From NCBI GenBank assembly GCA_024230435.1, contig JAAERL010000886.1:1-32878 (forward strand): DNA of 32,878 nucleotides, given 5' to 3'. The stretch is from Desulfobacteraceae bacterium (lineage in GTDB: Bacteria > Desulfobacterota > Desulfobacteria > Desulfobacterales > Desulfosarcinaceae). How positions within the stretch are numbered: position 1 is the first letter of the stretch; the number at the start of each line of letters is the position of its first letter. The position numbers and the translations under genes were made by a program. Below the pieces are notes generated by a model that ran no database searches, was not told the origin of the DNA, and saw only the letters and a program-made list of their open reading frames with translations. Positions 10,302-29,879 of this stretch are shown here, piece after piece.

Positions 10302-10623
10302 GGCCTTGAAAATTTCACATTGCCTGGCCCGGCATGGACGGTTTGCCCGGTAGTTTCGTTGCGCTTTAAATCTTATCCTCGCAATATCGGCTATATGTCC
10401 GCGGTAAAATTTTTCGTTTGCCTTGCTCCCGGCCGGATTGGCCTGTTTTCGGATGAACACCGCATATATTCGAACTCATTTTTATCCGTTGCGCTAATGA
10501 GCAAAGGCGTTGAGCAGATACCTGCCTGCCCACCTTGAAAGCGAATCAAAATCCTGCGCAATAGCGTGGGATATGCAACTTCCAAGACCTTTAATTTTAG
10601 AATAACGGGAGTTTTAAAAAAAG
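10302..10623. other. Gap between regulator and dpaL holding a family 2 repeat
   Basis: 322 bases without a gene I can support. Most of it is a copy of dispersed repeat family 2 (10345-10460). The final 60 bases (AATTTTAGAATAACGGGAG) are A/T-rich and carry the dpaL ribosome site. A promoter for the long operon may lie here, or the operon may be read through from the regulator gene. Confidence 0.6.
10345..10460 (+). repeat. Dispersed repeat family 2, copy A
   Basis: This 116-base stretch aligns with the reverse complement of 29372-29487 with small compensating gaps. Shared blocks are TTATCCTCGCAATATCG (TTATCCTCGGAATATCG in the other copy), GCGGTAAAATTT (GTGGTAAAATTT), then GCCTTG and GGATG. 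Identity is about 70% by eye. No coding potential. Confidence 0.65.
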
Positions 10624-11838
10624 ATGAAAACAATTGATGATTTGAACTTCAAGTATATTGTCCGTGAGCCATCCGGGAAAAACCCGCCTCAGGGGTTCAG
10701 TCAAGACACTGCCGCAGTAGTCAAAAGCTTTCACCAAAAGCTTCCCGGTTATAAACCGACTGATTTGGTGCGTCTGAATCAGCTGGCAAAATCCTGGAAA
10801 GCCGGTGATATTTTCGTAAAAGATGAATCCACACGTTTTGATCTAAAGGCTTTTAAAGTTTTAGGCGGAAGCTATGCCGTAGCCCGGCTGATGTGCAAAA
10901 AACTCGGACTTGACATAGAGCAAATCGGCTATGACTACTTAGTCAGTGATCAAGTCCGGCAGCAGATCGGGCAAATCACTTTTACTACCGCCACAGACGG
11001 AAACCACGGCCGTGGAATCGCCTGGGCGGCGCAGCAACTCGGTCAACAGGCGGTGATCTACATGCCCAAGGGGGCCGCCAGATCCAGGATCGAAAATATC
11101 CGCTCACATGGCGCAAAGGTTGAGGTGACCGATCTGAACTACGATGACGCCGTGCGTCTGTGCTGTGAAAATGCAGAGAAAAACGGCTGGTATGTTGTTC
11201 AGGATACGGCCTGGGAAGGTTATACCGAAATTCCTCTTTGGATTATGCAGGGCTATATCACCATGTGCTCGGAAGCCATTGAACAGATGGCATCTATGGA
11301 TACGCAGCCGACCCATGTGTTTGTCCAAGCAGGTGTAGGAGCTTTGGCAGGGGCTATTGTGGGCTATTTGGCAAATAAATTCCGTGACAATTCCCCCCGG
11401 TTTATCGTGATGGAACCAGCCAGGGCAGCCTGTATTTTAGCCTCTGCCGGCTCTTCGGACAATACCCCGCAACCGGTTGGCGGAGACCATGAAACCATTA
11501 TGGCCGGTCTGGCCTGTGGCGAGCCGAATATCATCGCTTGGGATATTTTAAGGGATTTTTCCTGCTGTTATTTGAGCTGTGAGGATTATGTCGCCGCAAA
11601 TGGCATGCGCATTCTCGCCAATCCCTTAGAAGGCGACAAGGCTGTCGAGTCCGGAGAATCCGGCGCCATCGGAATCGGACTGCTGGATCTTCTGGTCAAT
11701 AATGACCGCCTGGAACCACTGAGACGGCAATTAAAGATTGATTCGGACTCAAAGCTGCTTTTTTTCAACACCGAGGGCGCCACCGATCCTGAAAATTGGC
11801 AAAATATTGTGTGGTACGGAAAGTATCCGTCTTTATAA
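10624..11838 (+). CDS. dpaL: Diaminopropionate ammonia-lyase
   Basis: PLP enzyme of fold type II, 404 residues (E. coli YgeX has about 398). It splits 2,3-diaminopropionate into ammonia and 2-aminoacrylate, which decays to pyruvate and a second ammonia. The PLP lysine is K78 in LKAFKVLGG. Acidic residues in the positions of the known catalytic pair are D125 (TATDGNHGRG) and D194 (VQDTAWEGY). The glycine-rich phosphate loop is QAGVGALAGA. In purine-degrading bacteria this enzyme yields pyruvate at the end of the anaerobic urate route. It is the first enzyme gene of the long plus-strand operon and is followed 42 bases later by ygeY. GGGAG precedes the ATG. Confidence 0.95.
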   Translation: MKTIDDLNFKYIVREPSGKNPPQGFSQDTAAVVKSFHQKLPGYKPTDLVRLNQLAKSWKAGDIFVKDESTRFDLKAFKVLGGSYAVARLMCKKLGLDIEQIGYDYLVSDQVRQQIGQITFTTATDGNHGRGIAWAAQQLGQQAVIYMPKGAARSRIENIRSHGAKVEVTDLNYDDAVRLCCENAEKNGWYVVQDTAWEGYTEIPLWIMQGYITMCSEAIEQMASMDTQPTHVFVQAGVGALAGAIVGYLANKFRDNSPRFIVMEPARAACILASAGSSDNTPQPVGGDHETIMAGLACGEPNIIAWDILRDFSCCYLSCEDYVAANGMRILANPLEGDKAVESGESGAIGIGLLDLLVNNDRLEPLRRQLKIDSDSKLLFFNTEGATDPENWQNIVWYGKYPSL

Positions 11839-11880
11839 TTAAACATATGAATATAAATTGGGAGGAGAAAATTTAAACCC

Positions 11881-13095
11881 ATGCCTTCAATTGATTTTAT
11901 GCAAATTAATAAATTAGCAGAGCGCTGCAAACCAGAAATGAGCGCTTTTTTGCGAGATATGATACGTATTCCCAGTGAAAGCTGTGATGAAAAACTTGTT
12001 GTACAACGGATAAAAAAAGAGATGGAAGCCGTTGGCTTCGATAAAGTTGAAATAGATCCCATGGGAAATATTTTGGGCTCCATCGGCCATGGCAAAACCC
12101 TGATCGCCATGGACGCCCATATCGATACCGTTGGAGTGGGCAACCGGGATAACTGGCAGTTCGATCCATACGAAGGTTTTGAAGACGAAGAACATATTGG
12201 CGGCAGGGGAGCCAGCGACCAGGAAGGCGGAATGGCTTCTATGGTCTATGCCGGTAAAATCATCAAGGACCTGGGGCTGGAAGGCGACTACACTTTGGTT
12301 GTGGTTGGAAGTGTTCAGGAAGAAGATTGCGATGGACTGTGCTGGCAGTACATTATCAAAGAACTTGGCCTTAAACCGGAATTCGTGGTCTCAACCGAGC
12401 CTACCGATGGCGGTATCTACCGCGGTCAACGCGGCCGCATGGAAATCAAAGTGCAAGTAAAAGGTGTCAGCGCTCACGGATCCGCCCCCGAACGCGGAGA
12501 CAACGCCATTTTTAAAATGGGGCGTATTCTGGCCGATCTGGAAAAGTTGCACGAACGTCTCGCAATCGATGATTTTCTGGGAAAAGGTTCCCTGACAGTT
12601 TCTGAAATTTTCTATACGTCTCCTTCCCGATGCGCAGTGGCCGATGGTTGTACCATTTCTATTGACCGCAGGCTTACCGCAGGTGAAGACAAAGAACTGG
12701 CGCTTTCTCAGATCCGGGAGCTTGATTCGGTTAAAGCGGCCAATGCCGATGTTTCAATGTATACGTATGAGAAACCTTCCTATACCGGACTTGCTTATCC
12801 CACGGATTGCTACTTTCCATCATGGATTTTGCCCGAAGATCATTTGGTGACCCAGGCCGCCGTAGAAACGTATAAGAATTTATACGACCAGAAACCCAAC
12901 GTTGATAAATGGACCTTTTCCACCAATGGTGTTTCCATCATGGGTATGTTCGGCATTCCTTGCGTGGGATTCGGGCCGGGCAAAGAGGCCCAGGCACATG
13001 CTCCAAATGAAAAGACCTGGAAAGATGATCTCGTCCGCTGCGCTGCTTTCTATGCCTCATTGCCCCTTATCTACCTGGAGAAAAAAGGAGAGTAG
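11881..13095 (+). CDS. ygeY: YgeY-family M20 metallohydrolase
   Basis: Zinc-dependent amide hydrolase of the M20/ArgE/DapE superfamily, 404 residues, from the YgeY subgroup linked to selenium and purine metabolism. Metal-site residues are visible: H80 and D82 (MDAHIDT), D113 (GASDQEGG), catalytic E147 with E148 (VQEEDCDG), E173 (STEPTDGG) and a histidine in HAPNEKTW near the C-terminus. The dimerisation domain sits between about residues 185 and 290 ([15 protein letters not shown]). It probably removes a carbamoyl/ureido-type group from a linear purine fragment; the exact substrate is inferred. GGAGGAG lies 15 bases before the ATG, a long spacing, but no better start exists. Carbamate kinase follows after five bases. 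Confidence 0.92.
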
Positions 13096-13100
13096 CATAG

Positions 13101-14060
13101 ATGAAGGGCAAATTGACTTTTATTGCCATTGGCGGCAATTCACTGATAAAAAGCAGCGATCAACGCAGCGTTGAAGATCAACATGATTCCGTTCGGCAAA
13201 CCATCGAACACGTGGCGGACCTCATTCAGCAAGGGTATCATGTCGTGATATCCCATGGAAACGGACCGCAGGTCGGGTTTATTATGCGCCGCTCGGAAGT
13301 AGCCCGCCAGACAACCGGACTGCACCTGGTGCCCATGGTAAACGCCGTTGCCGATACCCAGGGGTCAATCGGCTACCAAATTCAGCAATCTCTAAACAAT
13401 GAGCTGCAGCGCCGATCCATCACGGGACAATGCGTCACGGTTGTTACACAGGTGGTCGTTGATGGCAATGATCCCGGATTTGAAAATCCGGCCAAGCCGG
13501 TGGGAGAATTTTTTACCGAGGAGCAGTTGCCCGATATTCAGCGGGAAAATCCCGGCTGGACCCTGATTCCGGATGCAGGCCGCGGCTATCGCCGAGCCGT
13601 CCCTTGCCCGGAGCCCATTGAAGTGGTGGAAAAGCCGGTCATTGAAACACTGCTCGGCGCCGGATACCACGTGGTAACGGCGGGCGGCGGCGGAATACCG
13701 GTAGTAAGAAACGATAACGGCCTGGAAGGTGTTGATGCGGTAATCGACAAAGACCTGGCCTCGAGCTTGCTGGCTGCCCAGTTAGGCGCCGATTTGCTTG
13801 TTATCTCAACGGCTGTTGAAAATGTCTATATCAACTTCGGCAAACCTGAACAACAGGCGTTAAGTCAAATTACTGCTGCCGAAGCACAAGAATACATCCG
13901 CCAGGGGCATTTTGCCTCCGGCAGTATGCTGCCCAAGATCAAGGCCGGATTACGGTTTTTGGAAAACGGCGGTAAACGAGTCATCATTACAACCCCGGAA
14001 TCTTTGAAGCAAGCCGTTATAAACGGAAAAGGCACACACATTGTTTCGAACAATAAATAG
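13101..14060 (+). CDS. yqeA: Carbamate kinase (YqeA/ArcC type)
   Basis: Amino acid kinase-fold enzyme of 319 residues that transfers phosphate from carbamoyl phosphate to ADP, giving ATP, ammonia and carbon dioxide. This makes it the energy-yielding step of the locus. Family motifs are IGGNSL at the N-terminus, SHGNGPQVGFIMRRSE, TAGGGGIPVV, VIDKDLASSLLA and FASGSMLPKIKA. It starts five bases after ygeY and ends 13 bases before ygeW, so the three are transcribed together. Its carbamoyl phosphate should come from the YgeW transferase working in the catabolic direction. The arginine deiminase pathway also uses this enzyme, but no arcA is present here. Confidence 0.95.
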   Translation: MKGKLTFIAIGGNSLIKSSDQRSVEDQHDSVRQTIEHVADLIQQGYHVVISHGNGPQVGFIMRRSEVARQTTGLHLVPMVNAVADTQGSIGYQIQQSLNNELQRRSITGQCVTVVTQVVVDGNDPGFENPAKPVGEFFTEEQLPDIQRENPGWTLIPDAGRGYRRAVPCPEPIEVVEKPVIETLLGAGYHVVTAGGGGIPVVRNDNGLEGVDAVIDKDLASSLLAAQLGADLLVISTAVENVYINFGKPEQQALSQITAAEAQEYIRQGHFASGSMLPKIKAGLRFLENGGKRVIITTPESLKQAVINGKGTHIVSNNK

Positions 14061-14073
14061 GAGTTAACTAATT

Positions 14074-15273
14074 ATGGATAGCATAAATATCGAGGCCTTG
14101 ACCAAGCAACTTGCACAGCTTGACTGTCAGGGGATGCACCAAAATGATTTTCTTTTGACATGGGAAAAAAATGATCAACAGATCCAGTCCACATTTCTGG
14201 TAGCTGAAATCTTACGCGGACTTCGGCAAAAAAACATATCCAGCCGTATTTTCGATAGCGGCCTTGGCATTTCCCTTTTCCGTGATCAGTCTACACGCAC
14301 ACGCTTTAGTTTCTCCAGCGCCTGCAACTTGCTTGGACTGGAAGTTCAAGATCTGGATGAGGGAAAATCTCAGATCGCCCATGGTGAAACCGTACGCGAA
14401 ACCGCCAACATGGTATCTTTCATGGCTGATGTGATCGGTATTCGGGACGATATGTATATCGGCAAGGGCAACGCTTATATGCGGGAAGTCTCCCAGGCGG
14501 TTGAGCAGGGTTTTCAAGAAGGTGTTTTGGAACAGCGGCCTACGCTGGTCAATCTGCAATGCGATATTGACCACCCCACCCAGACCATGGCGGATGCTTT
14601 GCATTTGATCAATCATTTCGGCGGCGTGGAAAACCTCAAAGGTAAAAAACTGGCAATGAGCTGGGCCTACAGCCCTTCATACGGCAAACCCTTATCCGTA
14701 CCCCAGGGCATCATTGGATTGATGACCCGTTTTGGCATGGACGTGGTGCTGGCCCACCCGGAGGGATATGAGGTCATGCCGGAAGTTGAAGAGGTTGCAA
14801 GAAAAAATGCCGCTCAAGGCGGCGGCAGCTTCAGCAAAACCAATTCTATGAAGCAAGCCTTTCAGGACGCCCATATTGTATACCCCAAAAGCTGGGCTTC
14901 TTTTGCAGCTATGCAAAAACGCACAGATCTTTTCGGCCAGGGCGATCAAGAAGGTATTAAAAAGCTGGAAAAAGAACTGCTCGCCCAAAACACCGGGCAT
15001 AAGCACTGGCATTGCACCGAAAATCTGATGGATGTCACCGCCGGCAAAAATGCCCTTTATATGCATTGCCTGCCTGCCGACATTACCGGCGTAAGCTGCA
15101 AAGAAGGCGAGGTAGAGGCCAGCGTGTTCGATCGCTACCGTGTGCCCATGTACCAGCAAGCAAGCTACAAGCCTTACATCATCGCCGCGATGATATTGCT
15201 GAGCAAGGTTCGCCAGCCTGCTGAACTCCTTGGCAAACTTGACCAGCAGGGCGCTATCCGGGCCCGTCTGTAA
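14074..15273 (+). CDS. ygeW: YgeW-type knotted carbamoyltransferase
   Basis: Carbamoyltransferase of 399 residues (E. coli YgeW has about 396), of the trefoil-knotted branch related to ornithine and acetylornithine transcarbamoylases. The carbamoyl-phosphate site is STRTR at residues 73-77, with HPTQ at 167-170 and the HCLP motif in MHCLPADITG. The insert between STRTR and HPTQ is typical of YgeW. In this setting it most likely runs phosphorolytically on a ureido compound (such as 2,3-diureidopropionate or a half-opened relative), handing carbamoyl phosphate to the kinase upstream and leaving diaminopropionate for DpaL. The substrate assignment follows recent views of the pathway and is not proven by sequence. 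A GGAG ribosome site precedes the ATG. Confidence 0.94.
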   Translation: MDSINIEALTKQLAQLDCQGMHQNDFLLTWEKNDQQIQSTFLVAEILRGLRQKNISSRIFDSGLGISLFRDQSTRTRFSFSSACNLLGLEVQDLDEGKSQIAHGETVRETANMVSFMADVIGIRDDMYIGKGNAYMREVSQAVEQGFQEGVLEQRPTLVNLQCDIDHPTQTMADALHLINHFGGVENLKGKKLAMSWAYSPSYGKPLSVPQGIIGLMTRFGMDVVLAHPEGYEVMPEVEEVARKNAAQGGGSFSKTNSMKQAFQDAHIVYPKSWASFAAMQKRTDLFGQGDQEGIKKLEKELLAQNTGHKHWHCTENLMDVTAGKNALYMHCLPADITGVSCKEGEVEASVFDRYRVPMYQQASYKPYIIAAMILLSKVRQPAELLGKLDQQGAIRARL

Positions 15274-15303
15274 TCGGCAAGGATCGATATCTGATAAATT
15301 GTA

Positions 15304-15334
15304 CCCTAACGTTGCCCATGCAATGTTAGGGTTT
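15304..15334 (+). terminator. Hairpin between ygeW and ridA, partial terminator candidate
   Basis: CCCTAACGTTGC (15304-15315) pairs with GCAATGTTAGGG (15320-15331) over 12 positions with one G-T pair and loop CCAT. Only TTTA follows, so termination would be incomplete. It could reduce transcription of the downstream genes or protect the 3' end of the upstream message. Confidence 0.55.
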
Positions 15335-15372
15335 ACATCAATTATAGAAAGTAAAAATGAGGAAATAGTCAC

Positions 15373-15756
15373 ATGACCAAAGAAATCATTAGCACAGATA
15401 AATCACCGGCTGCTATCGGCCCTTACAATCAGGCCATCAAAAAAGGCAACCTTTTGTTTACTTCAGGCCAGATCCCACTGGACCCGGTTTCCGGTGAAGT
15501 TGTTCAAGGCGATGTTCAGGCACAGAGTAAACGTGTGATGGAAAACCTGAAAGCCGTATTGAACGCAGGCGGTGCAAGCATGGATGATGTGGTCAAAACC
15601 ACATGTTTTTTGAACGACATGAGCGATTTTTTAAAATTCAACGAAGTATACCAATCCTACTTCGGTGATAATGCGCCTGCCCGTTCATGCGTAGCTGTCG
15701 ATCGTCTTCCAAAAGACGTTCTGGTGGAAGTAGAAGCTATTGCAATTTTAAGTTAA
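15373..15756 (+). CDS. ridA: RidA-family enamine/imine deaminase
   Basis: Small trimeric YjgF/YER057c/UK114 protein of 127 residues. Family motifs are AIGPYNQAIK, LFTSGQIPLDP, the catalytic arginine in PARSCVAV and the closing VEVEAIAI. RidA hydrolyses 2-aminoacrylate to pyruvate and ammonia, protecting PLP enzymes from this reactive enamine. DpaL, encoded 3.5 kb upstream in the same direction, releases 2-aminoacrylate, so the pairing makes chemical sense and supports a dedicated role. GAGGAAA serves as ribosome site. It sits between two hairpin regions and may therefore be expressed at a level different from its neighbours. Confidence 0.93.
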   Translation: MTKEIISTDKSPAAIGPYNQAIKKGNLLFTSGQIPLDPVSGEVVQGDVQAQSKRVMENLKAVLNAGGASMDDVVKTTCFLNDMSDFLKFNEVYQSYFGDNAPARSCVAVDRLPKDVLVEVEAIAILS

Positions 15757-15792
15757 GGGATTTAGAAGATGCAAATCATCTAGCCTTGTAGC

Positions 15793-15864
15793 CTAAGAGC
15801 TTGTTTGGGAACTATTAAATCGGCTGCAAAAGCTAAATTTTCTATTTCCCAAACAAGCTCTTAG
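15793..15864. repeat. Perfect 19-bp inverted repeat with 34-base loop (MITE/IS remnant or terminator)
   Basis: CTAAGAGCTTGTTTGGGAA at 15793-15811 has its exact reverse complement at 15846-15864, followed by ATTTTTTT. The loop is A/T-rich and non-coding. The stem and the T-run, 37 bases after ridA, fit a Rho-independent terminator. The arm also resembles terminal inverted repeats of small insertion sequences, and the right arm runs directly into repeat R5. Both readings are possible. Confidence 0.65.
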
Positions 15865-15988
15865 ATTTTTTTCGTATTCAAGGCATGCCAAAGTTCGCAT
15901 GCTTAACGTATTCGCACCTTTGGCATAACGCACAAGACGGGAAAAAAGACATACAAGATGGTATATTATTTAACACATATCGCCTTAA
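15861..15988 (+). repeat. Family R palindromic repeat, copy R5 (lacks left arm)
   Basis: Begins at TTAGATTTTTTTCG, which corresponds to the interior of copy R3, and runs through the core to ACAAGATGGTATATT and the right end ATATCGCCTTAA. The left terminal arm is missing, apparently replaced by the 19-bp inverted repeat. The right end lies 22 bases before the start of the selenium-dependent dehydrogenase gene. Confidence 0.85.
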
Positions 15989-16010
15989 AATTCCTTTAGG
16001 TGGGGAGTAT

Positions 16011-18578: not shown

Positions 18579-18601
18579 ATCGATACTGAAAGGATCAATC
18601 C

Positions 18602-19879
18602 ATGACGCTCTATCTTAAAAATGCTCTGTTTATAGACTGGCAAAGCCTTGCCGTAAAACAGGCCAATATCGCTGTAGAGCAAAGCCAGGATAAGGAAATT
18701 TCTTTTGTGCCGGCCGTTCCGTCTTCCGGCGATCTTGCCAGCGATGACCGCGTGCTGGACTGCACCGGCAAACTGGTTACCAAGTCCTTTGGCTGCGGCC
18801 ACCATCATATTTACTCCACTTTGGCCAGGGGCATGCCCGCGCCAAGAAAAATTCCAGCAAATTTTACACAAATACTCGAATATATCTGGTGGCATATCGA
18901 CAAACGCCTGGACCTGGAAATGATTGAGGCCAGCGCACTGGCTTCAGCCATCTTTTGCGCTAAAAACGGCGTTACATTTGTTATCGATCACCACGCATCG
19001 CCTTTTGCCGTTAAAGGGTCGCTGGATGTCATTGCCAAGGCCTTCAAACGGGTGGGGATCGGTTCCATGCTCTGCTATGAGCTATCTGACAGGGACGGCG
19101 CCGAATCCGTAGAGCAGGCATTGGCGGAAACCGATACCTTTCTTGGCTCCGGAAACCAGGGCCACGTCGGGCTGCACGCTTCGTTTACCGTGGGAGAACA
19201 ACTTTTGCGCCGCGCAGTGGAATTGGCGCAAAAGCATAACACCGGTGTGCATGTGCATGTTGCCGAAGATTTGGCTGATCAGAAGATTACCCAGGAAAAA
19301 TACGGCAAGAGTGTAGTGCAAAGATACCACGATGCTGGAGTTTTGAAACTCGATAAATCCATCTTTGCTCATTGCGTTCATCTTTCAGACACCGAAAAAG
19401 AACTTTTGAGACAATCCGGCGTATGGCTTGCCCAAAACGTAGAGAGCAATCAGAATAACAACGTTGGTATTGCTGGCTATAACTCTTTTGCTTCCAACGT
19501 CATGTTGGGTACTGACGGTATGCACAGCGATATGCTGCGCAGCGCCAAGGCGGCCTTTTTATCGGGCCAGGCGTCCGAGGCAATCGGATTTGACGGCATC
19601 TACCAGCGTTTTCGCAATGTTCATCACTACCTTAACGCATGTGGCGCACATGGCGACGGGGACAACAATCTCGTGGTGCTCGATTACGATTCACCAACCG
19701 AGGTCACTTCGGACAACTTTTTGGGTCACTTTGTTTTCGGCATCGACACCCGGCACGTTCAAAGCGTCATCTGTCAGGGAAATCTGATTGTCAAAGACCG
19801 TCAAGTTACCACCGTAGATGAAAAACAAGTATTGGCCTATTCAAAAAAGATGGGTCAAAAGCTATGGGATAAACTCTAA
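18602..19879 (+). CDS. ssnA: SsnA-type amidohydrolase
   Basis: Metal-dependent amidohydrolase of 425 residues in the SsnA group (linked to selenium metabolism by context in other genomes). Metal-site elements are H67 and H69 (GHHHIYSTLARGM), HVHVAED, FAHCVHL and LGTDGMHSDMLRSAK. In the usual amidohydrolase opening the HxH follows a PGLV-like strand; here it reads KSFGCGHHH, an unusual lead-in. By position it should hydrolyse or deaminate a purine-derived ring, after YgfK or the dehydrogenase and before the hydantoinase. The start follows the dehydrogenase stop by 23 bases with AAAGGA upstream, and its end is 16 bases before the hydantoinase, so the three are co-transcribed. Confidence 0.9.
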   Translation: MTLYLKNALFIDWQSLAVKQANIAVEQSQDKEISFVPAVPSSGDLASDDRVLDCTGKLVTKSFGCGHHHIYSTLARGMPAPRKIPANFTQILEYIWWHIDKRLDLEMIEASALASAIFCAKNGVTFVIDHHASPFAVKGSLDVIAKAFKRVGIGSMLCYELSDRDGAESVEQALAETDTFLGSGNQGHVGLHASFTVGEQLLRRAVELAQKHNTGVHVHVAEDLADQKITQEKYGKSVVQRYHDAGVLKLDKSIFAHCVHLSDTEKELLRQSGVWLAQNVESNQNNNVGIAGYNSFASNVMLGTDGMHSDMLRSAKAAFLSGQASEAIGFDGIYQRFRNVHHYLNACGAHGDGDNNLVVLDYDSPTEVTSDNFLGHFVFGIDTRHVQSVICQGNLIVKDRQVTTVDEKQVLAYSKKMGQKLWDKL

Positions 19880-19895
19880 TCCGAGTGTCGCCATC

Positions 19896-21275: not shown

Positions 21276-21319
21276 TGATGACTCAGCAATCGCGCTTTGT
21301 CCGGTTTTTTTTCGAATTC

Positions 21320-21339
21320 AGTCTGTTATCAAACAGACT
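21320..21339 (+). other. Hairpin between hyuA and ygfK
   Basis: AGTCTGTT pairs with AACAGACT over a four-base loop, 35 bases before the ygfK start. No T-tract follows. It may be a processing or stability element within the operon message. The 99-base spacer is the longest within the ssnA-xdhC half of the operon. Confidence 0.4.
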
Positions 21340-21374
21340 CATAGAAAATTGTAAAATTTTAGGAGATATAAAAA

Positions 21375-24300
21375 ATGAGTAGCGATAAGTTTTGGGGCTG
21401 TGATATCGTCCCCTTGCTCAAATGGATATTGGAAGAAGAAAAAAAGGGAAGTATTTTCGGTATTGACAAATCTGTCTTTTTTATTCCCGGCAAAACTGAC
21501 CCTTTCCGTATGCGCCGCTACGGCCACCTTTTGGAAACCCCGCTTGGCGTGGCCGCAGGACCACACACACAACTTTGCCAAAATCTGATTGCCGCCTGGT
21601 TGACAGGGGCACGCTACCTTGAATTAAAAACTGTACAGGTGCTCGATGAGCTGGAAGTCACCAAACCTTGTATCGATATGAATGATGAGGGCTACAATTG
21701 CGAATGGTCCCAGGAACTCAAGCTGGACCAGTCTTTTGACGAATACCTCAATGCCTGGATTATTCTGCATATCCTCAAGGATAAGTTCGGCTGGGGGGAT
21801 TCTGATGAGCCGGGATTTGTTTTCAATATGAGCGCCGGCTACAACCTGGAGGGAATTTTGAGCCCCTCCGTGCAACGCTTTCTTGACCAAATGGCGGACT
21901 GCTCTCAGGCAAAAGAAGAAAAACTGGAACGTTTGGCCGCGATCTATCCACGAGTCAGGGAATTGGACATTGCCGATTGCATCTCGGACAATATTACCAT
22001 TTCGACCATGCACGGCTGCCCGCCCGATGAGGTGGAAAAAATCGGCCGTTATTTCGTAAAAGAACGCAAACTGAACACCACTATAAAATTGAACCCAACC
22101 CTGCTGGGTCCCGAGCGTCTGCGCGGGATTCTCAATGACAGCCTGGGATTTGAAACCGTGGTTCCTGATTTGGCCTTTGAGCATGACCTCAAGTATGAAG
22201 ACGGCCTTGCTTTAATCCGGGCCTTGATTGAAGATGCCCGGCAAAGCGGTGTTGCCTTCAATATCAAGCTTACCAACACACTCGAAACAGCTAACAAGGA
22301 GCAAAACCTGCCTAAAAACGAAACAATGGTTTATATGAGCGGGCGTGCTTTGCATCCTATCAGCGTTAACCTGGCGGCCAAGCTTCAGAGCGAATTTAAC
22401 GGCGAACTGGACATTTCTTTTTCAGCCGGTGTGGATTGTTTTAATTTTGCCGGCGCCATCGCATGCAATCTCAAACCCATCACCGTTTGCTCGGACATCC
22501 TCAAGCCGGGCGGCTACGCAAGACTTTCCCAATACCTGGAACTGTTAGGCGCGGCTATGAATACCGTCAACGCTCAAAGTATAGAAGAATTTATCACTTC
22601 CCGCTGTACTGATACTCAAACCGTTGATCCGGCCCGCGCCGGACTGGAAAACCTTAAAAGCTACGCAGCAAAGGTTATTGAAGACAAGGCTTATAAAAAA
22701 GAGCAGTTTGCCTATGAATCCATAAAAACACAGCGAAAGCTGGACAATTTTGATTGTATACAGGCGCCTTGCATGACTACCTGCCCGGCAGGTCAAGACA
22801 TTCCCGGATACCTGTACCATACAGCCCGGGGCGACTATGAAAAAGCCTACCGGACTATCATGCAGACCAATCCTTTTGCCCATGTTCAGGGCATGGTATG
22901 CGACCATCTGTGCCAGAACAAATGCACACGCATCAATTATGATAATCCTTTGCTCATTCGGGAAATCAAACGGTTCGTAGCCGAAAAATTTGAAGCGCCG
23001 GGCCATCTGAAACCTTTGCCTTCAAACGGGATCAAGGTGGCGGTTATCGGCGCCGGGCCGTCAGGACTGGCCTGCGCTTACTTTCTTAGCCTGGAGGGAT
23101 TTGAAGTCGAAATATTTGAAAGTAAAGCCTTCGCAGGCGGGTGGGCCTCAGATGCCATTCCCGAATTCCGGCTCGATAACGGCAGCATCCAAAAAGATAT
23201 CGATGCCATTTTAAAACTTGGTGTAACTATCCACTATGAATCGGCCGTTGATCAGAAAAAATTTCAAGAGCTACAAGGAAATTTTAAATTTATCTACATT
23301 GCTGTGGGCGCACAACAAGGCACTAAGCTGGGCATACCTGGTGAGGACGCCCAAGGAGTCATGGATCAACTCGAATTCTTAAGTGCGGTACGCCGCGGAC
23401 AACGCCCGGATTTAGGCAAAAACGTAGTCGTTATTGGCGGCGGTAATTCGGCCATGGATGCAGCCCGCACCGCCAAGCGCCTGGTGGGAGCCAGCGGCAA
23501 GGTCAGTGTCATCTACCGCCGTACCCGTAAGCAAATGCCCGCCGCGCCCGAAGAGATTCAGGCCCTGGCGGATGAAAGCATCAAACTGATCGAACTCACC
23601 GCTCCTGAATGCATGCTGGTCGAACAAGGCCGGGTAAAATCCAACCTGTGCTTTTGTATGGAACTGGGCGAAAAAGACGCCAGCGGCAGGCGCCGTCCCA
23701 TCAAAATCGAAGGCTCCGAGTTTGAACTTGATGCCGACACGGTAATCTCTGCCATTGGTCAGCAGGTTAAAGTTGACTTTTTTCCCCATCAAAAATTGGA
23801 AATCAACCCCGCAACCCATGAAACCCAAGTTTCCAATGTCTTTGCCGGAGGAGATGCCGTCCGGGGCGCGTCAACACTTATTAAAGCCATTGGCGATGGC
23901 AAAAAAGCCGCCGCTTCAATCATTGACCGGGCCTTGCACAAAGACCGATTGCATGTAACTGAACCTGAAGAAAATAAACTGGAACCTGAACTGGTAAAAC
24001 AAAAAGGGCGCCGTTTGCCGGGCGCGTCAATACCCGAAACCGGCTTTGATCAAAGGCGCGGGTTTGATCTTGTTGTGCATACCATGGATGAACAAGCAGT
24101 CCGTAAAGAGGCTGCCAGATGCCTTCAGTGCAGCCAAGTATGCAATGTTTGCGTCAGCGTGTGCCCCAACCGCGCCAATGTAGCCTACTCCATTGAACCA
24201 GTAGAATATCCGGTTCAACAGGCCCGGCAGACGGACAACGGGGTTGAAGTTCTCACCGTGCAAACCGCGCATATTAGCCAGCGGCGCCAGGTGTTGAACC

Positions 24301-24671
24301 TTGCTGATTATTGTAATGAATGCGGCAATTGTACAACCTTTTGCCCCACAAGCGGATCTCCTTACCTGAATAAACCCAAATTACACCTGAGCCGGGACAG
24401 CTATCAATCAGCATCGTTTGGGTATCATTTTAGCTCGGCCAATCGTTTGGAATATAAGCGCGATGGCAGCTTCGCCAGCCTGGAGATAACCGGTCGGGGC
24501 TATATTTTCGAAAATGATCAGGTCTGTGTGGAATTGACCGGTAATTATATCGTAAAACAAGTGGAATTTAAAAAGAAGATAACAGGTGCTGTTAACTTGC
24601 AAATGGCGGCGCAAATGGCTATCCTTGCATTCCATGTGAGCCGGGTAGAACCTTTTAATTCAATCTTTTAA
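21375..24671 (+). CDS. ygfK: YgfK-type multidomain iron-sulfur flavoprotein (putative selenate/urate reductase subunit)
   Basis: Oxidoreductase of 1098 residues (E. coli YgfK has about 1032). The N-terminal half resembles a dihydroorotate-dehydrogenase-like barrel with the signature STMHGCPPDEVEKIGRYF. A GltD-like module follows. It has a cysteine-rich Fe-S start at C461 (CIQAPCMTTCPAGQDIP), an FAD fold at about 555 (VAVIGAGPSGLACAY), an NAD(P)-binding fold at about 684 (VVVIGGGNSAMDAAR) and FAGGDAVRGAST. The C-terminus carries ferredoxin-like cysteines from C916 (CLQCSQVCNVCVSVCP) and C980 (CNECGNCTTFCP). It was named a selenate reductase subunit, but its constant place in anaerobic purine clusters suggests NAD(P)H- or ferredoxin-driven reduction of a purine ring. 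A good AGGAGA ribosome site fixes the start. Confidence 0.92.
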   Translation: MSSDKFWGCDIVPLLKWILEEEKKGSIFGIDKSVFFIPGKTDPFRMRRYGHLLETPLGVAAGPHTQLCQNLIAAWLTGARYLELKTVQVLDELEVTKPCIDMNDEGYNCEWSQELKLDQSFDEYLNAWIILHILKDKFGWGDSDEPGFVFNMSAGYNLEGILSPSVQRFLDQMADCSQAKEEKLERLAAIYPRVRELDIADCISDNITISTMHGCPPDEVEKIGRYFVKERKLNTTIKLNPTLLGPERLRGILNDSLGFETVVPDLAFEHDLKYEDGLALIRALIEDARQSGVAFNIKLTNTLETANKEQNLPKNETMVYMSGRALHPISVNLAAKLQSEFNGELDISFSAGVDCFNFAGAIACNLKPITVCSDILKPGGYARLSQYLELLGAAMNTVNAQSIEEFITSRCTDTQTVDPARAGLENLKSYAAKVIEDKAYKKEQFAYESIKTQRKLDNFDCIQAPCMTTCPAGQDIPGYLYHTARGDYEKAYRTIMQTNPFAHVQGMVCDHLCQNKCTRINYDNPLLIREIKRFVAEKFEAPGHLKPLPSNGIKVAVIGAGPSGLACAYFLSLEGFEVEIFESKAFAGGWASDAIPEFRLDNGSIQKDIDAILKLGVTIHYESAVDQKKFQELQGNFKFIYIAVGAQQGTKLGIPGEDAQGVMDQLEFLSAVRRGQRPDLGKNVVVIGGGNSAMDAARTAKRLVGASGKVSVIYRRTRKQMPAAPEEIQALADESIKLIELTAPECMLVEQGRVKSNLCFCMELGEKDASGRRRPIKIEGSEFELDADTVISAIGQQVKVDFFPHQKLEINPATHETQVSNVFAGGDAVRGASTLIKAIGDGKKAAASIIDRALHKDRLHVTEPEENKLEPELVKQKGRRLPGASIPETGFDQRRGFDLVVHTMDEQAVRKEAARCLQCSQVCNVCVSVCPNRANVAYSIEPVEYPVQQARQTDNGVEVLTVQTAHISQRRQVLNLADYCNECGNCTTFCPTSGSPYLNKPKLHLSRDSYQSASFGYHFSSANRLEYKRDGSFASLEITGRGYIFENDQVCVELTGNYIVKQVEFKKKITGAVNLQMAAQMAILAFHVSRVEPFNSIF

Positions 24672-24682
24672 AATAAAAGTAA

Positions 24683-25558
24683 ATGTATCGAATTGCAGTA
24701 GATAAAATGAAACATACAACGATTTCTGATACACATCATTGCCCCAAGGCCCAATCGACATTGGCCGATCTGAGTATTTGCATCAAGGGCGCGGGTGACA
24801 TCGCCACCGGTGTGGCGGTTCGGTTGCACCGATGCGGATTAACACGCATTGTCATGCTGGAAACCGAAGCTCCTCTATCCGTGCGACGATCTGTTTGTTT
24901 TTCCGAGGCAATTTTTTTCAAAGAAAAAATTGTGGAAGGCATCATGGCCGTAGCTATCGATAATTCAGGCCAAATTTCTTCTGCCTGGAATACCGGGAGA
25001 ATACCGGTTTTGGCCGATCCTGACTGGAAAGTACTTCAACACACCCGTTTTGATGTAGTGGTGGACGCCATTATAGCTAAAAAAAATCTTGGCGCCCGAA
25101 TCCAGGACGGTCGTCTGGTGATCGGCCTGGGGCCGGGTTTTATCGCCGGAATAGATGTTCACCGTGTTATTGAAACCAACCGGGGACATGACTTGGGCCG
25201 GGTGATCCGGGCCGGTCAAGCGCAACCGAATACTGGTGTCCCGGGCATTATTATGGGATACGATCGCCAGAGGCTCCTTCGGGCCCCGGCGGACGGTGAA
25301 TTCGTAACCGGGTTGGATATCGGCGATATTATCGAAAATGGACAACCGGTTGGAAATATCGGCGATAACACGGTCAGGGCTCAACTTGGCGGAGTGATAC
25401 GTGGACTGCTGCACAGCGGTACGCAGGTACGAAAGGGTACAAAACTCGGTGACATCGATCCGAGAAAAAATATTCCCAATTGTAATCTCATATCGGATAA
25501 AGCGCTCGCTGTGGCAGGAGGTGTGCTCGAAGCAATTATGGAAACTCATTTGGCATAA
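24683..25558 (+). CDS. yqeB: YqeB-type selenium-dependent Moco maturation protein
   Basis: Protein of 291 residues of the EF2563/YqeB family, linked to loading a selenium-modified molybdenum cofactor into molybdenum hydroxylases. Visible features are a Rossmann-like N-terminus (IKGAGDIATGVAVRLHR), LGPGFIAGIDVHRVIETNRGH, and a C-terminal hammerhead/lipoyl-like part (RAPADGEFV, LGGVIRGLLHSGTQVRKG). It starts 11 bases after ygfK; a second in-frame ATG at 24707 is a possible alternative. Together with the XdhC-family protein and MocA it supplies three cofactor-maturation functions at one locus. YqeC and SelD, often paired with it, are not in the window. Confidence 0.9.
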   Translation: MYRIAVDKMKHTTISDTHHCPKAQSTLADLSICIKGAGDIATGVAVRLHRCGLTRIVMLETEAPLSVRRSVCFSEAIFFKEKIVEGIMAVAIDNSGQISSAWNTGRIPVLADPDWKVLQHTRFDVVVDAIIAKKNLGARIQDGRLVIGLGPGFIAGIDVHRVIETNRGHDLGRVIRAGQAQPNTGVPGIIMGYDRQRLLRAPADGEFVTGLDIGDIIENGQPVGNIGDNTVRAQLGGVIRGLLHSGTQVRKGTKLGDIDPRKNIPNCNLISDKALAVAGGVLEAIMETHLA

Positions 25559-25583
25559 AAAAGTAATTTATAAGGTATAATAT

Positions 25584-27872
25584 ATGGCAGTAGGTAAGTC
25601 TGTTCAAAGAAAAGACGGAGTAGCAAAAGTTACAGGCAAAGCGCGATACACCGATGATTTCTCCATGCCGGGTATGCGCGTGGCCAAGTACTTGCGAAGT
25701 CCCATAGCCCACGGCCGGGTTGTGCGGATCGATACAACAAGGGCCGAAAAACTACCGGGAGTTGATGGTGTTTTTACTTTTCACGATGTTCCCAAAAATA
25801 CATTCGCAACCGCCGGACATCCCTTTTCACTGGACCCGGAACACGGCGATGTCGCCGACAGGTTATTATTAACGGATTGCGCCCGTTTCCAGGGCGATGA
25901 GGTTGCCGTAGTAGTGACCCGTGATGACATGACAGCTCACAAGGCGCTGTCATTGATTGAAGTTGAATACGAAAACTTAAAACCCCTGATTCGCATGCAA
26001 GATGTTCTGGCCCACGATGCTCCCGAGCTTCACAAACGGAGCCGCAATTTGATTAAGGAGCACGCCTACACAGTGGGCGGAGATTATAAAAAGGCCATAG
26101 AAGAATCCGATCATCTCATTGAAGGCGTCTTTGAAACCCAGATTGTTCAACACTGCCATCTGGAGAATCATTCCTCTTATGCTTACATGGATGATATGGA
26201 CCGCATTGTCATTGTCAGTTCAACCCAAATTCCCCATATTGCGCGAAGGATCGTAAGCGAAGCCCTGAATTTTCCCTTAAGCCGCATACGGGTCATTAAA
26301 CCTCACATCGGAGGCGGGTTCGGAAATAAACAGGACGTTATCCTTGAACCCATGGTGGCCTTTTTGACCCTGAAGCTGGGCGGGATTCCCATAAGACTGA
26401 AACTCAACCGTGAAGAGTGTATGGTGGGCACACGTGTCCGGCATCCCCTGCATATCCAGGTAAAAGCCGGTATTAGCCAGGAAGGAAATTTAAATGTCAT
26501 TGATTACGACGCCGTTTCCAATACCGGCGCGTACGCATCCCACGGTCATTCCATTGTCAGCGCCGCTGCCGCCAAGACCCATTACATGTATCCCAGGGCC
26601 ATCTACCGCTGCCGCGCACGGACCATTTACGGAAATTTTCCCTCGGCCGGAGCGATGCGCGGGTACGGATCACCCCAGATTATCTTCGCTGTTGAGAGTC
26701 TCATGGAAGACGCCGCACGCAAACTGGGCATCGATTCGGTGGACTTTCGGCTCAAAAACGCCGTCAAACCAGGCGACATAAATCAGATCGGCAAACGCCC
26801 CATCGTAACCGCGGGACTCATCGAGTGCATAGAAAAGGGCAGAGATCTCATCGATTGGGATAAAAAACGCGCCACTTTACAAACGCCGCAAACAGGCCCT
26901 GTACGAAAGGGACTGGGCATTGCCTGTTTCAGCTATCTTTCAGGAACCTACCCGTCATGCGTTGAACCGGCCAGTGCCCGCCTGATCCTCAATCAGGACG
27001 GCTCCGTAAACCTGCTTGTCGGCGCAACCGAAATCGGCCAGGGATCAGATACCGTATTTGCCCAAATGACCGCCGAAACATTAGGCACATCCTACGAAAA
27101 GGTACATGTCGTATCAAACCAGGATACTGATGTGACTCCCTTCGATTCGGGAGCATACGCCTCGCGCCAAACCTACGTGACCGGCCAGGCCGTCATGCGT
27201 GCCGCCAGTGAGCTCAAGGATAAAATTTTGGCCTATGCCGGAGTGATCACGGGCATGAATCCCGGCGAGCTTGATATCGATGAAGGAAATATTGTCATTG
27301 CCAAATCCCGTCAGACAGCCGTGATGAGCCTCAAGGACCTCTCCATGGACGCTTATTACAACAAAAACCGGGGAGGCCAGATCACCTCTGAAGTAAGCTG
27401 CAAGGCGCTTACCAACGCACCTTCGTATGGATGCACAGTCGTGGATTTGGAAATTGACATTCCTATGTGTAAAGTAAAAATCAACGAAATTTATAACATC
27501 CATGACGCCGGCGTTATCATCAATCCCCTGACTTCCGAAGGGCAAATACACGGAGGCATGGCAATGGGCATCGGCGCAGCACTTTTTGAAGTGCTTATGG
27601 TCGACCCGGACTCGGGCCGGATTTACAATAACAACATGCTGGACTATAAAGTTCCAACGATAATGGATATTCCCGGCTTGGGGTCCGGATTTGTGCAAAC
27701 CCACGAACCCACCCATCCCTATGGAAGTAAATCTTTGGGCGAACCCCCCGTGCTTACCCCAGCGCCTGCTATCCGCAACGCCATACTCGACGCCACCGGA
27801 ATAGCCATAAACGAATTGCCCATGAACCCCAAGACCCTGTTCACGCATTTTAAAAATGCCGGATTACTATAG
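25584..27872 (+). CDS. xdhA: Xanthine dehydrogenase molybdenum-binding subunit XdhA
   Basis: Large Moco subunit of 762 residues (E. coli XdhA has about 752) of a three-subunit xanthine dehydrogenase that hydroxylates hypoxanthine or xanthine. The first 120 residues are the hammerhead domain (VTGKARYTDDF, LRSPIAHGRV). Moco contacts are SSTQIPH, GGGFGNKQDV from residue 243, SAGAMRGYGSPQ and TEIGQGSDTV. The base-catalyst glutamate is E720 in SLGEPPVLTPAPA. Ten bases separate its stop from xdhB. Whether it runs as oxidase of xanthine or reductase of urate in vivo cannot be told from sequence. Confidence 0.95.
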   Translation: MAVGKSVQRKDGVAKVTGKARYTDDFSMPGMRVAKYLRSPIAHGRVVRIDTTRAEKLPGVDGVFTFHDVPKNTFATAGHPFSLDPEHGDVADRLLLTDCARFQGDEVAVVVTRDDMTAHKALSLIEVEYENLKPLIRMQDVLAHDAPELHKRSRNLIKEHAYTVGGDYKKAIEESDHLIEGVFETQIVQHCHLENHSSYAYMDDMDRIVIVSSTQIPHIARRIVSEALNFPLSRIRVIKPHIGGGFGNKQDVILEPMVAFLTLKLGGIPIRLKLNREECMVGTRVRHPLHIQVKAGISQEGNLNVIDYDAVSNTGAYASHGHSIVSAAAAKTHYMYPRAIYRCRARTIYGNFPSAGAMRGYGSPQIIFAVESLMEDAARKLGIDSVDFRLKNAVKPGDINQIGKRPIVTAGLIECIEKGRDLIDWDKKRATLQTPQTGPVRKGLGIACFSYLSGTYPSCVEPASARLILNQDGSVNLLVGATEIGQGSDTVFAQMTAETLGTSYEKVHVVSNQDTDVTPFDSGAYASRQTYVTGQAVMRAASELKDKILAYAGVITGMNPGELDIDEGNIVIAKSRQTAVMSLKDLSMDAYYNKNRGGQITSEVSCKALTNAPSYGCTVVDLEIDIPMCKVKINEIYNIHDAGVIINPLTSEGQIHGGMAMGIGAALFEVLMVDPDSGRIYNNNMLDYKVPTIMDIPGLGSGFVQTHEPTHPYGSKSLGEPPVLTPAPAIRNAILDATGIAINELPMNPKTLFTHFKNAGLL

Positions 27873-27882
27873 GTAAAAGATC

Positions 27883-28761
27883 ATGTTTGATTTTGAAAGC
27901 TATCATAAAGCTGAAAGTGTAGATGAAGCCATAGCTCTGCTGGCTCAAAATCCTAAGTCTATCCCCCTTGCAGGCGGCACCGATGTCCTGGTGCGGTTAC
28001 ATCAACATCACCAGGATTACCGGCATGTGGTAGATATCCACGGCCTCAAGGAACTTAAGGAGATTTCAAAAAACCCGAACGGCGTAATCAGAATCGGTTC
28101 CGGGGTCACCTTTACCACTTTAACCGAACACCCTCTGATTACCGGCAACATACCCGTGCTGGCCCAGGGCGCCTCCAGCGTAGGAGGACCTCAGGTCCGC
28201 AACGTGGGCACCGTTGGAGGCAATATATGCAACGGAGCTCCCAGCGCCGACAGCGCCGCCCCGCTGCTGATTCTCAATGCCACCGTGGTGCTCAAAGGCA
28301 CCCAGGGACAACGTGAAATCCCTCTTCACGAATTTTACCAGGGCCCCGGCAAGGTCGACCGCATGGAATCGGAAATCTTGACCAGCATCGTTATTGCCCC
28401 TGAAAATTATCAGTGCTGGTTCGCTAAATACCATAAATACGCCATGCGCGACGCCATGGACATAGCTACCATCGGCTGCGCCGGCGCCTGTAACATTGAA
28501 GGCGGCCTGGTGAACCAACTGCGCCTGGCCTACACAGTGGCGGGCCCCACGCCTTTAAGATGCTGGAAGACAGAACAAATAGCCAAAGGCGCCAAAGCCG
28601 ATGAATCACTGCTTGAGCTTGTAAAGTCTTCCGTACTAAAAGACCTCAGGCCCCGTGACTCTTGGCGCGCCAGCAAGGATTTCCGTCAACACGTCATACA
28701 AACCCTTGCTCAGCGTGTGCTGCAAGCCATACTCAACCAATGTGGAGAAGTTAAACCATGA
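27883..28761 (+). CDS. xdhB: Xanthine dehydrogenase FAD-binding subunit XdhB
   Basis: FAD subunit of 292 residues that passes electrons from the [2Fe-2S] subunit to NAD or another acceptor. The FAD-binding motifs are LAGGTDVLVRLHQ near residue 30 and the long signature VGGPQVRNVGTVGGNICNG with SADSAAPLL (about residues 100-125). The C-terminal CO-dehydrogenase-flavoprotein-type domain follows. The stop codon overlaps the xdhC start by four bases (ATGA), indicating translational coupling. It is the only stand-alone flavin subunit of this type in the window although two molybdenum hydroxylases are present. Confidence 0.95.
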   Translation: MFDFESYHKAESVDEAIALLAQNPKSIPLAGGTDVLVRLHQHHQDYRHVVDIHGLKELKEISKNPNGVIRIGSGVTFTTLTEHPLITGNIPVLAQGASSVGGPQVRNVGTVGGNICNGAPSADSAAPLLILNATVVLKGTQGQREIPLHEFYQGPGKVDRMESEILTSIVIAPENYQCWFAKYHKYAMRDAMDIATIGCAGACNIEGGLVNQLRLAYTVAGPTPLRCWKTEQIAKGAKADESLLELVKSSVLKDLRPRDSWRASKDFRQHVIQTLAQRVLQAILNQCGEVKP

Positions 28762-29276
28762 ATCGAAACATATCCTTTACCATAAACGGAAAATCCGTCA
28801 CCTTATTGGTAGACGTGCGCCAATCCCTTCTTGAAGTGCTTCGCGAACATGGCTACACCAGCGTAAAAGAAGGCTGCGGCGTAGGCGAATGCGGCGCTTG
28901 CACCATTCTTATCGGCAACACCCCCGTTGACTCATGCCTCTACCTGGCGGTGTGGGCTGACGGTCGCACCATCCGAACCGTAGAAGGCGAAACCCGCAAC
29001 GGCGATTTATCCGAAGTCCAACAAGCTTACCTGGACGCCGGAGCGGTCCAATGCGGCTATTGCACACCCGGGCTGATCATGACCTCCACCGCCTTTGTGG
29101 AAAAAAACAAAGATAACACATCCATCAGCCGCCATGACATCAAACGGGCCCACGCAGGCAACCTTTGCCGCTGCACCGGCTACGAAACCATCATCCGCGC
29201 GGTAGAGCAATGCCTGACACCCGAAAAACCCAACCAGGACACGCATTGCAAATGCAAGGCCGAATCCGGAGAATAA
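28758..29276 (+). CDS. xdhC: Xanthine dehydrogenase iron-sulfur subunit XdhC
   Basis: Small subunit of 172 residues with two [2Fe-2S] clusters. The plant-type cluster uses C40, C45, C48 and C60; the second uses C99, C102, C137 and C139 (CGYCTPG ... CRCTGY). It relays electrons from the Moco subunit XdhA to the FAD subunit XdhB. The tail is slightly extended and ends with an extra CKC triplet (HCKCKAESGE) that is not part of the standard cluster set. It is the last gene of the operon; no clear terminator follows, only A-rich sequence and a family 2 repeat. Confidence 0.95.
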   Translation: MNRNISFTINGKSVTLLVDVRQSLLEVLREHGYTSVKEGCGVGECGACTILIGNTPVDSCLYLAVWADGRTIRTVEGETRNGDLSEVQQAYLDAGAVQCGYCTPGLIMTSTAFVEKNKDNTSISRHDIKRAHAGNLCRCTGYETIIRAVEQCLTPEKPNQDTHCKCKAESGE

Positions 29277-29724: not shown

Positions 29725-29801
<77 letters not shown>

Positions 29802-29809
29802 ATAAAATC

Positions 29810-29843
29810 AAAGGGTTATGACAATCGTCATAACCCTTTTTTT
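29810..29843 (+). terminator. Rho-independent terminator after tRNA-Arg
   Basis: AAAGGGTTATGAC (29810-29822) pairs perfectly with GTCATAACCCTTT (29827-29839) over loop AATC and is followed by TTTT. The inverse strand also ends in a T-run, so it can terminate the convergent integrase transcript as well. Confidence 0.85.
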
Positions 29844-29846
29844 GTA

Positions 29847-29870: not shown

Positions 29871-29879
29871 CTGCGGGAA

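Follow-up and report, generated by a model that had tools for sequence, protein, structure and literature searches.

A predicted gene cluster for anaerobic reductive purine catabolism via urate, with a divergent SsnA and an FAD-less xanthine dehydrogenase homologue, in a sulfate-reducing member of the Desulfobacterales

The reductive degradation of urate was elucidated in gut bacteria because of its relevance to gout. The route from urate to pyruvate was shown stepwise in 2025 with purified enzymes of E. coli and C. difficile (PMC12507026). In E. coli, XdhD-YgfM converts urate to 2,8-dioxopurine, YgfK and SsnA carry out the reductive dearomatisation and ring opening, HyuA acts next, and YgeW (forming carbamoyl phosphate), YgeY and YgeX/DpaL lead to pyruvate (PMC12507026); two groups disagree on which of the ureido groups is removed by YgeW (PMC12990295). 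A published survey based on IPR017700 names Pseudomonadota, Bacillota, Chloroflexota, Actinomycetota, Spirochaetota, and Elusimicrobiota (PMC12507026). For sulfate reducers and Desulfobacterota, the pathway was not reported in the titles or abstract openings of the literature searched, in which subscription journals were thinly covered; xanthine loci have been described for Izemoplasmatales and Clostridium in a study of DNA degradation in sediment (PMC8289736), and a Black Sea study found xanthine dehydrogenases in most of its genomes (PMC11129491). Here we analyze a stretch of 32,878 nucleotides from a Desulfobacteraceae bacterium (contig JAAERL010000886.1, assembly GCA_024230435.1; the whole stretch is called the window below), which carries a cluster of genes with a counterpart for every step of the published route.

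The cluster consists of 13 intact open reading frames, all on the + strand, between positions 10624 and 29276. We consider it likely that it serves anaerobic reductive purine catabolism via urate in a sulfate-reducing member of the Desulfobacterales, and that it is probably transcribed as one operon. The pathway itself is already known, and the novelty lies in the variant. The genes are given below with their family scores (NCBIfam bits/curated cut-off, with Pfam used for domain matches); identities are to the proteins of E. coli K-12.

10624–11838, +: dpaL/ygeX, 2,3-diaminopropionate ammonia-lyase (TIGR03528 572/532)
11881–13095, +: ygeY, M20-family ureido hydrolase (TIGR03526 692/321.5; 70% identity)
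13101–14060, +: yqeA/arcC, carbamate kinase (TIGR00746 360.5/358, narrow)
14074–15273, +: ygeW, carbamoyltransferase, phosphorolysis to carbamoyl phosphate (TIGR03316 740/500; 65% identity; STRTR and HPTQ motifs)
15373–15756, +: ridA, enamine/imine deaminase (TIGR00004 178/106)
15885–18578, likely start 16011, +: "xdhD", fused Fe-S/Mo xanthine dehydrogenase homologue, urate-reductase candidate (TIGR03311 948.5/830; E444/R552/E862)
18602–19879, +: ssnA, divergent aminohydrolase (TIGR03314 338.5/455.5 and PRK07203 369/444, both below cut-off)
19818–21275, likely start 19896, +: hyuA, D-hydantoinase family (TIGR02033 498/393; 44% identity)
21375–24671, +: ygfK, Fe-S flavoprotein, 2,8-dioxopurine reductase candidate (TIGR03315 925.5/835; Fer4_20 and Pyr_redox_2, the FAD/NAD(P) domain)
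24683–25558, +: yqeB, maturation factor of selenium-dependent molybdenum hydroxylases (TIGR03309 331/220)
25584–27872, +: xdhA, xanthine dehydrogenase Mo subunit (NF043082 1172/780)
27883–28761, +: xdhB, FAD subunit (NF043083 398/310)
28758–29276, +: xdhC, Fe-S subunit (NF043084 226/217)

An initial annotation, made from the sequence alone, had placed these 13 genes on one strand in this interval, and all of them are present and intact, 12 scoring above the cut-offs of the curated models, with SsnA as the single one below. Its assignment of the gene families and its link to the urate clusters of E. coli and Clostridia agree with these scores and with the published enzymes, and the order of the middle steps, which it had inferred, has since been established with the enzymes of E. 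coli and C. difficile (PMC12507026). Counterparts in the E. coli K-12 cluster were found at 33–70% identity for 11 of the 13 proteins, whereas RidA has none there; together with the fused xanthine dehydrogenase (XDH) homologue at 26%, this places the gene set far beyond chance. HyuA, YgeW and carbamate kinase, YgeY, and DpaL all exceed their cut-offs (carbamate kinase narrowly), in keeping, at the level of gene families, with the yield of ATP through YgeW and carbamate kinase and of pyruvate through DpaL that had been claimed for the locus. The YgfK/UacX position of the pathway is occupied by YgfK, with its FAD/NAD domain. The claim that the set is complete is partly supported: every step has a counterpart, but the fused XDH is not an ortholog of E. 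coli XdhD and has no YgfM, and SsnA belongs to a divergent subfamily. Residues K78, D125, and D194 of DpaL align with K77, D120, and D189 of YgeX, which we take to be functional residues. The window HyuA contains HTH, K177, HAEN, HLST, and TDHC, and of the same patterns TDHC alone was found in E. coli HyuA. The annotated starts of xdhD and hyuA are probably misplaced, with true starts inside the frames at 16011 and 19896, since the family matches begin near these positions and the overlap of hyuA with ssnA then vanishes; the ribosome-binding context is good at 16011 and weak at 19896.

Based on these families, we propose the following route. Purine bases would enter through a permease encoded at 5912–7501, guanine would be deaminated to xanthine by GuaD, and XdhABC would oxidize xanthine to urate. 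The fused XDH, matured with the help of YqeB, selenium, and the MocA/XdhC-type factors, may then reduce urate to 2,8-dioxopurine, the ring of which would be reduced by YgfK with NAD(P)H and opened by SsnA. HyuA would open the hydantoin to diureidopropionate, from which YgeW may phosphorolyse one ureido group to carbamoyl phosphate, used by carbamate kinase to form ATP, while YgeY would hydrolyze the second. From the resulting diaminopropionate, DpaL would eliminate ammonia, and RidA would clear the aminoacrylate to give pyruvate and ammonia, the pyruvate feeding a sulfate-respiring metabolism. We infer all of these reactions from the enzymes of E. coli and Clostridia, and we also infer the co-transcription and what the permease, RidA, and the regulator do. 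Directly observed are the gene content, the membership in families, the conservation of residues, and the context in relatives. The route takes up four electrons net from urate onwards (PMC12507026), which suggests that energy would come from carbamoyl phosphate and from the oxidation of pyruvate. Growth on purines as an energy source is a prediction.

The fused XDH is the candidate for the urate step. It shares 26% identity with E. coli XdhD and 28% with E. coli XdhA. In an alignment of 47 distinct fused-XDH relatives (that of the window included) and 19 distinct XdhA types, the active site E444/R552/E862 (E/R/E) was present in all 47, whereas all 19 XdhA types have Q/R/E; we take the E/R/E set to be that of characterized xanthine dehydrogenases. 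E. coli XdhD has Q449/Q557/E917 and an insertion carrying E606, a position that is a gap in all 47 relatives; E606 has been proposed to orient urate (PMC12507026). The FAD partner YgfM was not found in the window, where the nearest protein is XdhB with 23% identity over 164 amino acids. On this comparison, the fused XDH is not an XdhD ortholog, and ferredoxin or flavodoxin as its electron donor would be a guess. It ends at most 1.5 kb upstream of ssnA in 54 of 80 related loci.

To obtain these loci, genome contigs were scanned for motifs with ten SsnA sequences from the class and the finds were verified by tblastn, which gave 391 related loci; all counts over 80 refer to the best 80 of the 391, with 53–71% SsnA identity. 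Their titles cover Desulfobacterales, other Thermodesulfobacteriota, Bacteroidetes, Chlorobiota, Krumholzibacteriia, Acidobacteriota, Aminicenantes, Denitrovibrio, SAR324, and unassigned bins. The SsnA type is also carried by Desulforhopalus sp. IMCC35007 (L098) and Desulfopila sp. IMCC35006 (L091). The two best models of the window SsnA are those of SsnA (TIGR03314 and PRK07203), and the next model reaches 132 bits. It has H67, H69, H219, H257, and D305 in common with E. coli SsnA, residues which we take to be metal ligands. Under TIGR03314, E. coli SsnA scores 738 and nine further relatives from different groups score 307–343, with the cut-off at 455.5; across 395 genomes of the phylum, none exceeds the cut-off and six, including the genome of the window, score 293–338. 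A tree of 91 rows places the window SsnA in a starred set of 15, of which 13 are Thermodesulfobacteriota. A long branch (92/98, unstarred) separates the group from E. coli SsnA, a separation that is weak since the tree has one canonical row. These sequences suggest that the window SsnA is a member of a divergent subfamily spanning several phyla. IPR017700 presumably rests on TIGR03314, and the published survey would hence have missed this branch.

The genome, which probably belongs to the Desulfosarcinaceae (6.13 Mb in 1238 contigs, listed completeness 100%, contamination 1.54%), is consistent with the setting proposed above. The sulfate-reducer context suggested by the initial annotation is supported by dsrA, with 600 bits against a cut-off of 393. 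Two selD genes score above cut-off (C1057:4210-5136 and C486:50962-51885), each with one in-frame TGA, so that both copies are probably selenoproteins. SelD, YqeB, and YqeC have been used as markers of the selenium-dependent molybdenum hydroxylase trait (PMC2276186); SelD and YqeB (331/220) are found in this genome, and YqeC gave no match in it. The lack of YqeC fits the observation that C. difficile requires SelD and YqeB to grow well on urate and xanthine, whereas a yqeC deletion had no obvious phenotype (PMC11448449). Only two proteins of the genome match MoCoBD_1 (PF02738), and both are XDH proteins encoded in this cluster, so that no further client from that family is evident for the adjoining maturation genes.

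The last step seems to vary among the relatives. In the window it would fall to DpaL, which was found in eight of the 80 loci, whereas a zinc-ribbon threonine-synthase-like pyridoxal phosphate (PLP) enzyme was found in 27, both in none, and neither in 45, many of which lie on short stretches. The mutual exclusion has p = 0.046 over all 80 loci with shared descent ignored, and we infer that the threonine-synthase-like enzyme replaces DpaL. A CysK/CBS-like PLP enzyme of about 490 amino acids (C5; e.g., L132:366-1829) occurs in 27 of the 80 loci, beside dpaL in four, and often adjoins the zinc-ribbon protein, with which it possibly forms an alternative end of the pathway; the genome of the window has weak paralogs of C5 only (50 and 21 bits). 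ridA accompanies dpaL in six of the eight dpaL loci and occurs in two of the other 72 (Fisher p = 2.5e-6, with few independent lineages), and in one of these two (L097) the stretch ends before dpaL could show. RidA presumably clears the 2-aminoacrylate formed by DpaL, a role that fits here.

Among the 36 loci with a length of 17 kb or more, 31 have an XDH-type match, and ygfK was found in 27, ygeW in 23, ygeY in 22, arcC in 18, hyuA in 16, and xdhA in 13. In ten of the 80 loci, xdhD, ygfK, ygeW, ygeY, hyuA, and arcC occur together with either last-step enzyme. Family genes for 8-oxoguanine deaminase (L055) and 5′-deoxyadenosine deaminase (L056), both above cut-off, were also observed in clusters of relatives. 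YgeW exceeds its cut-off in 33 of 291 genomes of the class. Around ygeW in the 32 other genomes, in stretches as long as the contigs allowed, ssnA of the window type lies nearby in 14, and one genome (G221) has ygfK and xdhABC only. The pathway is patchy within the class. In five genomes (G098, G227, G229, G003, and G287; loci L040-L041, L076-L079, L085, and L051), ygeW, in some cases with ygeY, lies near genes of TRAP-type transporters (named by eye), mostly with C5. None of xdhD, ssnA, and ygfK was found in those stretches, and YgeW there perhaps serves a different use, e.g., on an imported ureido compound.

The cluster is flanked upstream by genes for guanine deamination, transport, cofactor maturation, and regulation, and a repeat-bearing gap lies inside it:

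4552–5862, +: guaD, guanine deaminase, guanine to xanthine (TIGR02967 615/375; 54% identity)
5912–7501, +: unclassified permease, proposed distant NCS2-type nucleobase transporter (profile comparison; membrane-like hydropathy)
7758–8366, −: MocA-like NTP transferase, probable Mo-cofactor cytidylyltransferase (NF045665 217/315 and TIGR03310 131/186, both below cut-off; PF12804)
8354–9400, −: XdhC-family molybdoenzyme maturation factor (NF045664 369.5/350)
9624–10301, likely start 9663, +: YheO-like PAS_6/HTH_22 regulator, candidate cluster regulator (PF08348, PF13309; start context)
15793–15990, unstranded: 72-nt palindrome with 28-nt arms (15793–15864) and a copy of a ~110-bp repeat, between ridA and xdhD

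Of the flanking genes named by the initial annotation, guaD and the XdhC-type chaperone score above their cut-offs, the MocA-like protein scores below its cut-offs but has PF12804, and the permease has no Pfam or NCBIfam match. The regulator had not been named before; a homolog occurs in nine of the 80 SsnA loci. A tRNA-Arg followed by a phage-integrase-family gene on the opposite strand (29725–31121) lies just beyond xdhC, a possible integration site adjoining the cluster.

The permease has 529 amino acids and the hydropathy of a membrane protein. It gave no NCBIfam match and no Pfam match even at E 1, none of nine members of its family matches PF00860, single-sequence and profile searches against sequences of solved structures gave nothing meaningful (best E 0.06 and 0.73), and a single-sequence AlphaFold2 model has no usable fold (mean predicted local distance difference test score 41.7). 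When the nine members were compared by hhalign with nine UacT/XanQ sequences, the probability was 96.2% (E 2.1e-9, 305 columns), and the permease profile against single sequences gave 86.6% with GhxQ, 76.0% with XanQ, and 24.6% with UacT. Controls (reversed, TRAP, ABC permease) did not exceed 1.2%, yet the UacT/XanQ profile against GhxQ also reached only 0.7%. FIE(263)TM of the permease aligns on FIE(270)SM of UacT and D287 on D298, E263 and D287 each being present in eight of the nine members; we take these positions to be the TM8 Glu and TM9 Asp that have roles in NCS2 transporters. The comparison suggests that the permease is a distant NCS2-type nucleobase transporter. Since the genome has no match to the PF00860 nucleobase permeases, it is the best candidate for base uptake. 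Within the class, 10 of 282 genomes have a homolog, a count that includes the genome of the window. Among the neighborhoods scanned in five genomes, one homolog (L191) lies directly beside two adenine-deaminase-type genes (633/472.5, and 374, below cut-off), and another (L186) lies 6–8 kb from xanQ and xdhC homologs, a loose link with DNA methyltransferase-like genes (below cut-off) in between; the other three showed no purine gene among the genes scanned. In five relatives (G267, G076, G190, G260, and G143; e.g., L054, L071, L074, L057, and L063), genes of a nucleoside-type ABC transporter, named by eye as BMP-like binding protein, ATPase, and permeases, adjoin the urate cluster.

The ~110-bp repeat occurs in the window at 19–127, 2775–2883, 3679–3787, 7517–7626 (−), and 15866–15974, two of the copies being only 71–72% alike. 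In the genome it has at least 42 matches, nearly all with at least 91% identity, when 40 of 455 first-look candidates were scored, and it is possibly a miniature inverted-repeat transposable element or a repetitive extragenic palindrome-like element with hundreds of copies. Its occurrence upstream of guaD and xdhD was considered as a regulon signal and rejected, the element being a genome-wide repeat. The dsrA contig (C1032) and one of the selD contigs (C486) also carry the repeat; this links the window with the genome, and a binning artifact was therefore judged unlikely. Control by a riboswitch was rejected on the basis of Rfam scans: at the gathering threshold, the whole window gave two tRNAs only and no riboswitch, and at permissive thresholds the region 9300–16200 gave three matches of miRNA models on the 72-nt palindrome, all below gathering scores.

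Several observations weigh against the assignment of the cluster to reductive purine catabolism. The window SsnA falls below both of its curated cut-offs, and the fused XDH has only 26% identity to E. coli XdhD, lacks E606, and has no YgfM partner, so that its reaction with urate is putative. Twelve of the 80 SsnA loci have none of the neighbors sought, seven of them, mostly Bacteroidota, on more than 10 kb and one on 21 kb; ssnA would there lie apart from the other genes or have another function. hyuA was not found in 20 of the 36 long loci. No xdhD, ssnA, or ygfK lies near ygeW in 17 of the 32 other YgeW genomes, eight of these on contigs shorter than 12 kb, so that YgeW alone is no marker of the pathway. 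The repeat-bearing gap precedes xdhD, with about 254 bp between ridA and the likely xdhD start compared with about 85–93 bp in relatives L097-L099. The palindrome and repeat in this gap could mean that the cluster is decaying or silent and has been interrupted by repeats, a reading that we regard as highly improbable, considering that all 13 frames are open, that the models are matched over nearly the full length, and that residues are conserved where checked.

A different middle of the route is also conceivable, in which the fused XDH is a classical purine hydroxylase with hypoxanthine or a different purine as its substrate, while the substrate of YgfK and SsnA is supplied by XdhABC or some other enzyme. 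The E/R/E active site in all 47 relatives, the lack of the Q449/Q557/E917 set and E606 insertion of E. coli XdhD, and the name of the family model TIGR03311, "selenium-dependent xanthine dehydrogenase," speak for it. However, the fused XDH lies directly upstream of ssnA in 54 of the 80 loci, C. difficile XdhD is likewise without YgfM yet has been placed at the urate step (PMC12507026), and urate reduction with an artificial donor has been reported for XdhAC of C. sporogenes (PMC12990295), and we therefore hold this alternative to be unlikely. Slightly less so, although still rather unlikely, is that the cluster mainly scavenges nitrogen from purines and has little part in energy metabolism, as the net input of four electrons from urate (PMC12507026) and the presumed release of ammonia at several steps might suggest. 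Pure nitrogen scavenging would have no need of the ATP and pyruvate kept by YgeW with carbamate kinase and by DpaL, and the cluster does not contain UacY, the hydrolytic variant that gives up the ATP (PMC12507026), for which no search was made elsewhere in the genome.

Reductive purine catabolism via urate, with retention of ATP and pyruvate, remains our preferred reading of the cluster. Beyond this genome, the chances seem about even that there is a second, environmental branch of the pathway across sulfate reducers and other, largely uncultured bacteria of several phyla, marked by the divergent SsnA and by a Mo reductase that is FAD-less and differs in its active site. Such a branch would have been missed as the SsnA marker model excludes it. 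Some of its members would have a nucleobase transporter family of their own and many would use another PLP lyase at the end of the pathway, and in the sulfate reducers purine breakdown would be coupled to sulfate respiration. If this is true of free-living sulfate reducers, the purines of nucleic acids and the urate of animals would be a direct source of carbon, nitrogen, and energy in anoxic habitats, and the pathway would be undercounted wherever surveys rely on the current SsnA model. The FAD-less reductase with its XDH-like active site would offer a natural test of the residues that decide urate reduction, and the permease is a candidate for a new nucleobase transporter family. We suggest that three points are worth following: the SsnA/XDH branch in the environment, the family of the permease, and the connection with sulfate respiration.

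Among the systems compared, the cluster of Desulforhopalus sp. IMCC35007 (L098) has the same order dpaL-ygeY-arcC-ygeW-ridA-xdhD-ssnA-hyuA-ygfK-yqeB. It differs in that its xdhBC lie upstream of dpaL, that it has a xanQ homolog and the C5 PLP enzyme, and that no homolog of the window permease was found in that stretch.

The urate cluster of E. coli K-12 (xdhABC, ygeWXY, hyuA, yqeAB, ygfK, ssnA, ygfM, xdhD, guaD, and uacT) has family counterparts for 12 of the 13 window genes, with identities of 44–70% for dpaL, ygeY, carbamate kinase, ygeW, hyuA, yqeB, and xdhABC, 38% for ygfK, and 33% for ssnA. A comparison of gene order with this cluster, proposed as a check by the initial annotation, showed that the gene content is shared whereas the order differs. 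ygfM, ygeV, yqeC, xanQ, uacT, and ghxQ have no counterpart in the window, which has a fused XDH of another subfamily, an additional ridA, another regulator, and another permease. The C. difficile system, known to us from the published description (no clostridial sequence was compared), resembles the window in its Mo/Fe-S reductase without an FAD subunit, and it uses UacX and UacY where the window has YgfK with its FAD domain and YgeW with carbamate kinase (PMC12507026).

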